This document shows, one piece after another, positions 21,720-60,641 of a DNA stretch of 64,000 nt (position 1 is its first letter; each line of letters opens with the position of its first letter). Both the position numbers and the translations under genes were made by a program. This stretch comes from Oscillatoriales cyanobacterium (lineage in GTDB: Bacteria; Cyanobacteriota; Cyanobacteriia; Cyanobacteriales; Microcoleaceae). The notes under the pieces were generated by a model. It ran no database searches. It had not been told where the DNA came from and worked only from the letters and a program-made list of their open reading frames with translations. Location of the stretch: contig RDYN01000035.1 of NCBI GenBank assembly GCA_004293365.1, positions 1 through 64,000 of the forward strand, in the 5' to 3' direction.

Positions 21720-24572
21720 ATGACCGCAAACCTACCGCCCCAATACGACCCCAAAGCCACCGAAACCAAGTGGCAAAAATACTGGGAAGACAACCAAACC
21801 TTCAAAGCCGATCCAGAAGCAGGCGGCGAACCCTACTGCGTCGTCATTCCGCCGCCCAACGTGACCGGCAGCCTCCACATGGGACACGCCTTTGAAGAAA
21901 CCCTAATTGATGTCCTCGTCCGCTATCACCGCATGACTGGACGCAATACCCTGTGGTTGCCGGGAACGGATCATGCTAGTATCGCAGTTCAAACTATTCT
22001 CGAAAAACAACTCAAAGCACAAGGCAAAACTCGCCACGATTTAGGTAGAGAAAAATTCCTAGAACGGGCTTGGGAATGGAAAGCTGAGTCTGGCAATACT
22101 ATTACTAATCAATTACGCAGTTTGGGCGTGTCTGTTGATTGGTCGCGGGAACGCTTTACGATGGATGAAGGCTTATCCGCTGCGGTTTTAGAAGCCTTTG
22201 TCCGCCTCTACGATGAGGGGCTGATTTATCGCGGCAATTACTTGGTGAATTGGTGTCCGGCGAGTCAGTCTGCTGTGTCGGATTTGGAGGTTGACCAGCA
22301 GGAAGTTGAGGGCCATTTGTGGCATTTCCGCTATCCTTTGACGGATGGTTCTGGTTATTTGGAGGTGGCGACGACTCGGCCGGAGACGATGCTGGGCGAT
22401 ACTGGCGTTGCGGTGAATCCAGAGGACGATCGCTACAAGCATCTTATCGGTAAAACTGTCACTTTGCCAATTGTCGATCGCGAAATTCCAATTTTTGCCG
22501 ATGAATTAGTTGACGCGACTTTTGGAACAGGCTGTGTCAAGGTGACTCCCGCCCACGATCCGAATGACTTCGAGATGGGTAAGCGCCACAATTTGCCGTT
22601 TATCAACATCATGAACAAGGACGGCACTTTAAATGAAAATGCCGGAGAGTTCCAAGGACAAGACCGATTTGTTGCCCGAAAGAATGTCGTAAAACGTTTA
22701 GAAATAGACGGCGTCTTAGTTAAAATTGAAGATTACAAACATACAGTTCCCTACAGCGAACGCGGCAAAGTTCCCGTCGAACCGTTGCTATCTACGCAAT
22801 GGTTTGTGAAGATAGAACCGCTTTCTGGGCGCGCTTTGGAAGCCTTAGATCAAAACAATTCACCTGTCTTTGTTCCTGAGAGATGGACAAAGGTTTATCG
22901 CGATTGGTTGGTGAAGCTGAAAGATTGGTGTATTTCCCGACAATTGTGGTGGGGACACCAAATCCCGGCTTGGTATGCTGTTAGCGAAACTCACGGCGAA
23001 ATTACTGATACAACGCCGTTTGTGGTGGCGAAAACTGAAGCTGAAGCTAGGGAAAAAGCTACTGCTAAATTTGGTGAGGATGTCCAGCTAGCAAGAGATC
23101 CAGATGTATTGGATACTTGGTTTTCCTCGGGGTTGTGGCCTTTCTCAACTTTGGGCTGGCCGGACGAAACTAAGGATTTGGATTTTTACTATCCGACAAC
23201 TACTTTGGTTACGGGTTTTGATATCATCTTTTTCTGGGTTGCGAGAATGACGATGATGGCAGGACATTTTACTGGAAAGATGCCTTTTGAGACTGTTTAC
23301 ATTCACGGTTTGGTGTTGGATGAAAATGGTCACAAAATGTCTAAGAGTAAAAATAACGGTATTGACCCGCTGCTGTTGATTGGCAAGTACGGGACTGATG
23401 CTTTGCGCTACACTTTGGTTAAGGAAGTGATTGGGGCCGGGCAGAATATTCGCATGGAGTACGATCGCAAAACTGATGAATCTAAATCAGTCGAGACTTC
23501 GCGGAATTTCACTAATAAGTTGTGGAATGCGGCCCGGTTTGTGATGATGAATCTGGAAGGACAAACTCCTCAGCAGTTGGGTAAACCTCTCACTCAGGTT
23601 CGTAGTGAGGACTTTAGTCCGCAGGGGGAGAGGACTGAAGTCCTTACTACAAACCAGGTTCGTAGTGAGGACTTTAGTCCGCAGGGGGAGAGGACTGAAG
23701 TCCTTACTACGAACCTTACTACAAACCTTAGCGATCGCTGGATTCTTTCTCGCTATTATCAAGTTGTACAACAAAGTCGCACTTGTTTAGAAAATTACGG
23801 TTTGGGGGAAGCGGCGAAGGGACTTTACGAGTTTATTTGGGGCGATTTTTGCGACTGGTATATTGAGTTAGTCAAGTCTCGCTTACAACAAGATGCTGAA
23901 CCCAATTCTAAGAAAGTTGCACAGCAAACTTTTGCTTTTGTGTTGGAAGGAATTCTGAAATTGCTGCATCCTTTTATGCCGCACATTACTGAGGAGATTT
24001 GGCACACTCTGACTCAAACGGGCGAGGATGAATGTCTGGCTTTGCAAGCTTATCCTGAACCAGAACCATCGCTGATAAATCCTGAATTAGAACAGCAGTT
24101 TGAGTTGTTGTTCGGGACAATTCGCACTATTCGCAATTTGCGGGCGGATTCGGATATCAAACCGAGTGTGAAGGTGACGGTGATTTTGCAAAGCGACAAT
24201 GAAAAAGAACGCCAAATTCTCTTGGATGGAGGCGTTTACATTCAGGATTTGGCTAAAGTCGAAAATCTGACGGTGACAGCTAGTTTAGATGCAGAACCAA
24301 CCCTTGATAAGGGGGGGTCAATTGCTGGGGTTGTCGGTACTGTCCAAGTCTTGATTCCTCTGGCTGGTGTGGTCGATTTGGTGGCTTTGCGCGGTAAGTT
24401 GGAGAAGAAGCTGGCTAAGGTGGAAGCTGAAATTAAGCATACGGCGGCGCGTTTGACTAATCAGAAGTTTGTGGATAAGGCTACTCCTGATGTGGTTCAG
24501 GGGGCGAGGGATGCTTTGGCTGAATCCGAAAAACAAGCTGAGATTTTGCGCGATCGGCTAAAGTTGTTTTAA
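21720..24572 (+). CDS. valS: Valyl-tRNA synthetase carrying an in-frame repeat insertion
   Basis: Class I synthetase charging tRNA-Val. The 950-residue chain has the HIGH-type motif [15 protein letters not shown] (about 45-59), the editing domain, KMSKS (near 540), the helical anticodon domain and a C-terminal coiled coil ([16 protein letters not shown]). Between the catalytic part ([14 protein letters not shown]) and the anticodon domain ([11 protein letters not shown]), about 44 residues come from two tandem copies of a family A palindrome plus a partial third: [20 protein letters not shown] twice, then LTTN. The reading frame stays open and the gene is otherwise complete, so the enzyme is probably functional with an extra loop. 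It stands alone. Confidence 0.97.
23595..23726 (+). repeat. Family A palindrome, two tandem 60-bp copies inside valS
   Basis: Copies at 23595-23654 and 23655-23714 differ at one base near the end; a 12-bp tail repeats the last part. Each copy has arms of the ggttcgtagtgaggacttta type and a gcaggggga loop. The 60-bp period is a multiple of three and the frame chosen has no stop codon. Confidence 0.95.
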
Positions 24573-24748
24573 GGAGTAATTAGTCATTAGTCATTAGTCA
24601 TTAGTCATTAGTCGCGGGTGGGGTGAGAAACCGGGTTTCTACGAAATTTTGTGTTTAGTCACGATAAATCTCGAAAGAAACCCGGTTTCTGAGGTTATTG
24701 CCGAAATTACCAATTACCAATTACCAATTATCAATTACCAATTACCCC
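24573..24748. repeat. Heptamer tract, family C palindrome and taccaat tract
   Basis: Three repeats fill the gap after valS: tagtcat units (about 24579-24613), a family C element with gaaaccgggtttct and agaaacccggtttct arms (24627-24690), and taccaat units (about 24707-24747) running up to the next ATG. Confidence 0.85.
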
Positions 24749-40496: not shown

Positions 40497-40610
40497 GTAA
40501 AACCCCCAGTAGGGTGCGCAATGCGCTAAACCCTGAAAATCAACCGAACAATTCATGAGTAAAACCCCCAGTAGGGTGCGCAATGCGCACCGGTGCGCAT
40601 TGCGCACCCT
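40464..40610. repeat. 62-bp tandem duplication plus a 38-bp perfect palindrome (family F)
   Basis: 40464-40525 is repeated exactly at 40526-40587. The unit includes the KGK gene end and atgagtaaaacccccag, which matches the start of the HNH gene (atgagcaaaacccccag at 40651). A perfect family F palindrome (agggtgcgcaatgcgcacc and its complement) lies at 40573-40610. Confidence 0.9.
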
Positions 40611-40925: not shown

Positions 40926-41080
40926 GTTTGTAGTGCGGACTTCAGTCCGTTAGATCGAAATTTTTGCCCAATGCGGACTAAAGTCCTCACTACAAACCTC
41001 AATTATCTGTTTGTAGCGCGGACTTCAGTCCGTTCTGAGAAATTTTGACCCAATGCGGACTAAAGTCCTCACTACAAACC
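40926..41080. repeat. Two family A palindromes in tandem
   Basis: Elements at 40926-40997 and 41009-41080 with gtttgtagtgcggacttcagtcc-type left arms and cggactaaagtcctcacta-type right arms, between convergent genes. Confidence 0.88.
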
Positions 41081-50914: not shown

Positions 50915-50919
50915 CAGAA

Positions 50920-51157
50920 GGTACGTAGTTGCGCTTGAGCGCTCCTCCAGGTACGTAGTTGCGCTTGAGCGCTCCTCCAGGTACGTAGTTGCGCTTGAGC
51001 GCTCCTCCAGGTACGTAACATACCTAAATCAAGAGCGCTTAAGCGCAACTACATACCTAAATCCAGAGCACTTAAGCGCAACTACATACCTAAATCAAGA
51101 GCGCTTAAGCGCAACTACATACCTAAATCCAGAGCGCTTAAGCGCAACTACATACCT
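50920..51157. repeat. Family B array: three direct 30-bp units facing four inverted 33-bp units
   Basis: Three exact copies of a 30-bp unit (gtacgtagttgcgcttgagc core) at 50921-51010 and a stub, then four near-exact copies of the reverse unit (agagcgcttaagcgcaacta core) to 51157. The two halves are complementary, so a large cruciform or alternative hairpins can form between the two kinase genes. No spacers, so not CRISPR. Confidence 0.93.
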
Positions 51158-51225
51158 AGAAATTAACCTCGCAGAAGACTGCAAAAGTTAAAATTCGATC
51201 GCCAGCCCAACTCCTCGATCGCGCC

Positions 51226-55873: not shown

Positions 55874-55935
55874 GGTTCGTAGTGAGGACTTTAGTCCTCA
55901 TCAAACTTTGAGGACTAAAGTCCTCACTACAAACC
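55874..55935. repeat. Family A palindrome between two kinase genes
   Basis: 27-bp arms (55874-55900 and 55909-55935) with one mismatch around an 8-nt loop. It ends 27 bp before the next ATG. Confidence 0.92.
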
Positions 55936-60505: not shown

Positions 60506-60641
60506 GGTTCGTAGTGCGGACTTTAGTCCGCATTTTTGAAGGACTAAAGTCCGAACGATCAAACCAGATATAGATCGTTAACGGTTCGTAGTGCGGACTT
60601 AAGTCCGCATTTTTAAAGGACTAAAGTCCTGACTACAAACC
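60506..60641. repeat. Two family A palindromes
   Basis: Elements at 60506-60565 and 60583-60641. The first has a hybrid right arm (ccgaacgatcaaacc) as in the 25.2-kb variant, which suggests exchange between subtypes. The 60413-60733 gap contains these and a short ggcggcgcggc-type stretch only. Confidence 0.9.

Follow-up and report, generated by a model that had tools for sequence, protein, structure and literature searches.

An in-frame GTAG-class REPIN in an interdomain linker of Microcoleus valyl-tRNA synthetase, and its likely RAYT transposase

Repeats of the GTAG class are characterised by a GTAG tag, a small palindrome and an arrangement in inverted pairs, an anatomy described by De Gregorio (2013, PMC3733652) and by Bertels and Rainey (2011, PMC3116915). 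In-frame REPs within genes, tRNA synthetase genes included, have been reported in several species and, in the same survey, recB of two Xanthomonas species is the only gene noted in which different REPs occupy roughly one position (PMC3733652). In-frame intragenic REPs are therefore a kind of finding already known. The palindrome described here, family A, resembles the RAYT-linked GTAG REP/REPIN in its tag, in its inverted pairs, in its hundreds of copies and in a flanked Y1 transposase. It differs from the recB case, since three unrelated families occupy one linker, filled in 21/28 genomes, with signs of nesting and a further repeat site elsewhere in ValRS. An earlier note on this DNA had likened the element to the Rickettsia palindromic elements (RPE), and the comparison holds as an analogy, both being palindromic repeats found as in-frame protein segments; by class, nevertheless, the element belongs to the RAYT-linked GTAG REPs/REPINs and is not an RPE. 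Indeed, RPE-4 and RPE-6 are listed as CGTC-tagged families in PMC3733652, whereas family A is GTAG-tagged, RAYT-linked, mostly intergenic and hosted by Microcoleus. A further parallel is CAAD, a membrane anchor in cyanobacterial ValRS according to PMC4893482: it is also an extra segment at a ValRS interdomain junction, the same one that holds our second repeat site, but the inserts reported here are repeat-derived and predicted to be disordered, and the main loop (residues 626–669) is not the CAAD place in the ValRS examined. Among the papers listed by our searches of the open-licence PMC literature, none described unrelated families settling one after another in a single linker of an essential enzyme throughout a genus, and no title or abstract start announced such a case in valS or Microcoleus.

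The window, i.e., the whole stretch of 64,000 nucleotides analysed, belongs to a genome of the same genus as Microcoleus sp. LEGE 07076 (L001) and carries a valS gene coding for a ValRS of 950 aa in one open frame. Pfam assigns tRNA-synt_1 to residues 17–570 and Anticodon_1 to residues 672–822, and also recognises Val_tRNA-synt_C; the top Foldseek match is 1gax_A (TM 0.81 by query length). As the earlier note had stated, two 60-bp copies of family A lie in frame between the catalytic and the anticodon-binding domains, at about residues 626–669. The features referred to in the text are the following.

21720..24572, + strand: valS, valyl-tRNA synthetase, 950 aa (ORF, Pfam, Foldseek)
23595..23654, + strand: family A REP pair (REPIN), copy 1; RNA hairpin of -37.8 kcal/mol, z -6.9
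23655..23714, + strand: family A REP pair, copy 2, in tandem; RNA hairpin of -44.5 kcal/mol, z -6.7
23602..23620, + strand: GTAG-tagged REP half-site, exact
23632..23650, - strand: GTAG-tagged REP half-site, 2 mismatches
23662..23680, + strand: GTAG-tagged REP half-site, exact
23692..23710, - strand: GTAG-tagged REP half-site, 2 mismatches
23714..23727, + strand: partial further copy with CCTTACTACAAACC tail, a repeated 14-nt piece (family D2 in the repeat listing)
23731..23738, + strand: GCGATCGC, HIP1 octamer, at the right edge of the valS loop
24300..24317, + strand: second valS repeat site, B-like ACCCTTGATAAGGGGGGG, coding for TLDKGG
40930..41075, and within 26-129, 55879-55930 and 60511-60636: other family A half-sites of the window, outside predicted genes

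The two 60-nt copies are 98% identical to each other, and each is an inverted repeat with 25-nt arms, 92% complementary, around an 11-nt spacer. The array spans 44 codons, in agreement with the about 44 residues first proposed, but the net gain is of 38–40 residues, with 80 residues between anchors versus 40–42 in empty-loop relatives; Thermus ValRS (1gax) has 5 residues opposite window residues 616–666. The octamer GCGATCGC, named HIP1 in PMC4390886, is also present in the other Microcoleus valS loops examined.

The family A half-site is GTAGTGAGGACTTTAGTCC, in which GTAG stands at the base of a short palindrome whose stem, GGACT/AGTCC, is 5 bp long, at the lower end of the 5–13 bp range given for GTAG REPs in PMC3733652. 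Searching the 19-mer with at most 2 mismatches retrieved 15 half-sites in the window versus 0.00 expected (100 shuffles) and 945 + 953 = 1,898 genome-wide, with 0 + 0 for the reversed control pattern. A sample of 859 kb contained 51 inverted half-site pairs, with a spacer of 10–15 nt in 40/49 pairs outside genes. Family A thus consists of two inverted REPs round a spacer, folding as a hairpin; it joins a GTAG tag to a palindrome and is of high copy number and mainly extragenic. Family A is a GTAG-class REPIN.

The position of the repeats with respect to genes was examined in the same sample (61 sources, 858,911 readable bases), which is non-random, being composed of the window, 20 hand-picked stretches, some on contigs already known to hold repeats or RAYT, and 40 taken by consecutive contig number. 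Of 164 A half-sites, 156 lie outside genes, although our own simple codon-usage caller assigns 75% of the sample bases to genes, indicating that family A is normally kept out of them. Two more lie near ORF ends (L247, L263) and were set aside as end effects; the six internal ones are the four in valS and two in a histidine kinase gene (L162:16-2655), where they are in frame within the HATPase_c domain, in repeats at 1658–1712. The earlier claim that family A is otherwise intergenic throughout the window is therefore valid, 4/15 half-sites there being genic, all in valS, but it does not extend to the genome. For the other families, the sites inside genes are 0/29 (D), 0/20 (E), 7/28 (B, in three genes) and 2/2 (C); B-like repeats are found in a third gene at L241, and a C match in L247. 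The spacing on the same strand is divisible by three in 3/3 cases inside genes (two loci) versus 15/61 outside. In the 49 inverted pairs outside genes, a mean of 1.63 of the 6 frames is open. The G010 and G011 arrays that were read have several open frames and are nonetheless intergenic, so that an open frame through such an array is by itself weak evidence of coding. These arrays, retrieved by the ValRS query, were accordingly rejected as coding. Two adjoining tandem arrays, with periods of 30 bp and 33 bp and palindromes of the GTAGTTGCGCTTGAGCGC type, were also observed at window positions 50919–51158.

Pfam Y1_Tnp matches occur at four places in the genome of the window. One of them, the gene G000:C116 (14879-15475; 199 aa), has family A repeats on both flanks, the arrangement typical of a RAYT and its cognate REP. 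Two others adjoin different palindromes, GTAGGGTGCGCANTGCGCACC and GAAACCGGGTTTC. The GTAGGGTGCGCANTGCGCACC repeats adjoin a second RAYT at L112, occur in the window at 40575–40608 and have 0/29 sites inside genes in the sample; the GAAACCGGGTTTC palindromes adjoin a third RAYT at L111 and are found just downstream of valS as well (about 24627–24689). Among the 30 of 39 RAYT matches that were read, the remaining 9 being weak matches, family A lies beside 7/7 relatives at least 71% identical, on both sides in 6/7, and beside 0/23 of the others. RAYT relatives at least 90% identical are present in 6/29 genus genomes, own genome included, and all six hold full family A copies in valS. Where no such RAYT was found, G021 has a full copy in valS and G015 a decayed one. 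G021, with 659 A copies, family A in valS and a RAYT that is only distant (28% identity), counts against the explanation that we favour. Taken together, the Y1 (HUH) transposase RAYT at G000:C116 likely mobilises family A, its catalytic activity being presumed.

The valS loop could be seen in 28/29 Microcoleus genomes (none was found in G009, 84% complete). It is filled in 21/28 and empty in 7/28. Family A is in the loop of 8 genomes, full in 7 and degenerate in one (G015); an unrelated palindrome, family B (CCCCCCCTTGCTAAGGGGGGG type), fills 10, of which G014, where the contig breaks within the loop, was read on one side only and G019 holds a run of N; family C (GTAGGGGCGGTGCCCCCGTGCC) fills 2, and C within B was observed in one (G008). 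Twenty of the 21 filled loops are readable side to side, one of them with the N run, and all are in frame and stop-free. Of the other 32 genomes in the family, representing 10 further genera, 29 have a short loop, the exceptions being B-like repeats in G035 and G036 and another repetitive segment in G029. In a wider ValRS alignment the loop is of 6–9 residues in 22 of the other 25 sequences, so that the segment is not shared with ValRS of other bacteria, and this refutation envisaged in the earlier note fails; the exceptions have 15, 24 and 28 residues, the 24 belonging to Microcoleus L001, while the 15 and 28 are those of the non-cyanobacterial L029 and L041. The 29 genus genomes contain from 7 to 2,489 A half-sites. 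A-filled genomes are richer in A (245–2,489 half-sites versus 7–651 in the others; 8 vs 19; p 7e-5) and C-filled genomes in C (3 vs 24; p 0.004), while no significant relation of this sort was seen for B (10 vs 17; p 0.18); these tests omit G009 and G014 and, the species being related, are non-independent and confounded by phylogeny. G006, with 651 A copies and yet family B in the loop, also counts against our preferred explanation.

We consider it highly probable that REPIN family A is a tolerated passenger in the ValRS linker, likely mobilised by its RAYT. The RAYT at G000:C116 would copy inverted REP pairs round the genome; family A would have inserted into the ValRS linker that joins the catalytic domain to the anticodon-binding one, and families B and C into the same stretch in other species. 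Copies would be retained if their length was a multiple of three, their phase stop-free and the linker free of folding need. A later tandem duplication of the 60-bp unit would have given the present insert, which would be translated as an unstructured spacer with no essential role; both its translation, judged from the frame, and its near-neutrality are presumed here. Mobility and tolerance in a protein, as earlier suggested, are both supported as inferences by the range of copy numbers, by the flanked transposase and by the full or degenerate inserts of 8 of the 28 genomes.

Near relatives, as judged by the 300 bp either side of the loop, may hold different things in it: A in L083 but B in L093, A in L094 but nothing in L095, B in L103 but C in L089. 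In L094 an A half-site lies inside an apparent B remnant, and L106 has C inside B as a nested remnant, although its genome is 86% complete and 7% contaminated and its valS matches in three pieces; family B was probably the earliest arrival in some lineages at least. All eight A alleles have a similar left junction, making one or few insertions with later spread likelier than eight; many independent A insertions are hence unsupported, and the eight alleles may all stem from a single event, passed on since by descent or recombination. Parsimony on a valS-flank tree (30 tips, 3 outgroups) required 12 loop-type changes versus a mean of 15.9 in 1,000 shuffles, a result limited by recombination and weakly supported nodes. 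The loop edges of filled and empty alleles are too diverged to define a target-site duplication by eye.

That a longer linker is selected for, helping ValRS in domain motion, tRNA release or partner binding, would account for three families filling the same place in so many genomes, and for A arms 91–100% identical between species despite divergence of 15–45% at 4-fold sites in the flanks. We regard this as quite unlikely, since the insert is missing from a quarter of the genomes, near relatives of filled ones included (L095 next to L094; L096 near the filled L088, support 0.72), and neither sequence nor length is common to A, B and C. Moreover, the 11-nt A spacer is only 27–100% identical between species and alters amino acids, and a free spacer between constant arms is unlike a constraint at the protein level. 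The constancy of the arms fits homogenisation with the many genomic copies, selection on the stem being the alternative; degenerate sites being few, silent changes in the arms are no more than suggestive. The hairpins are very stable (z -6.7 and -6.9) and lie at a domain boundary, and their arms are better conserved than the spacer, which could also point to a role of the RNA or DNA, namely a valS mRNA hairpin that pauses the ribosome between domains or that protects or destabilises the transcript. This we hold to be very unlikely: the same genomes do without the insert, any REP pair folds likewise, the linker is where protein disorder is tolerated anyway, and homogenisation would explain the arms equally well.

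The AlphaFold2 model of the window ValRS (26 sequences) had a mean pLDDT of 85.2 and a pTM of 0.79, and pLDDT fell below 50 over at least 3 residues only at 628–666 and 858–861, that is, at both repeat sites; the main insert is thus predicted to be disordered. B-like repeats occupy the second linker in 9/27 genomes, L089 having a remnant only and L100 being empty. In Nostoc ValRS, CAAD lies at this junction (Pfam matches in L007 and L017), and a similar segment there was recognised by eye in L009 and L010. No CAAD (PF14159) match was found in the window ValRS; L007, L017 and L012 do match.

Repeats were also noticed in other proteins. Long B-like arrays, variable across the genus, are found in ligA (NAD-dependent DNA ligase) of the window's genome (L238:128-2383) and in L273-L301, in the adenylation domain just before the KIDG motif, which we take to hold the catalytic lysine of LigA. 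Twenty-three of 29 fetched loci were readable over this stretch, which is filled in 19 (18 B-like, G007 different) and short in 4, and in frame in 21/23. In AroE (shikimate dehydrogenase) of the same genome (L161:4978-5955), B-like repeats separate the substrate-binding domain from the NADP domain.

Palindromic inserts are bypassed by ribosomes in some yeast mitochondria, and the two ligA loops that are out of frame (G003 and G028), among the 23 with both anchors, might suggest that such inserts, including that of valS, are skipped by ribosomal bypass or RNA excision; however, those two loops hold long G/C runs, in assemblies of 6 and 1 contigs, where base-calling errors are possible, and all 20 read-through filled valS loops are open and in frame, which would be needless if skipped, making skipping extremely improbable. 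An assembly or binning artefact, for which one could cite the contig break within the loop of G014 and the several G000 contigs starting with family A repeats, is hardly credible and was rejected, since many separate assemblies have a filled loop, in every case surrounded by valS sequence of the species concerned.

The case is a real and correctly read instance of mobile DNA turned coding segment, its translation being presumed from the frame. As a tentative idea, unlikely as a whole, linkers of essential enzymes (ValRS twice, LigA, AroE) might be standing landing sites for palindromes in Microcoleus, where a first repeat enlarges the safe target for unrelated families, and junctions so opened may, in other cyanobacteria, have given whole domains such as CAAD their way into ValRS. 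The genus offers a natural series from selfish DNA to protein, with empty, single, tandem, nested and decayed states, in an enzyme that has to stay functional. The way in which mobile palindromes build up or wear down protein segments can thus be tested directly, and such linkers should not be taken as conserved protein sequence.
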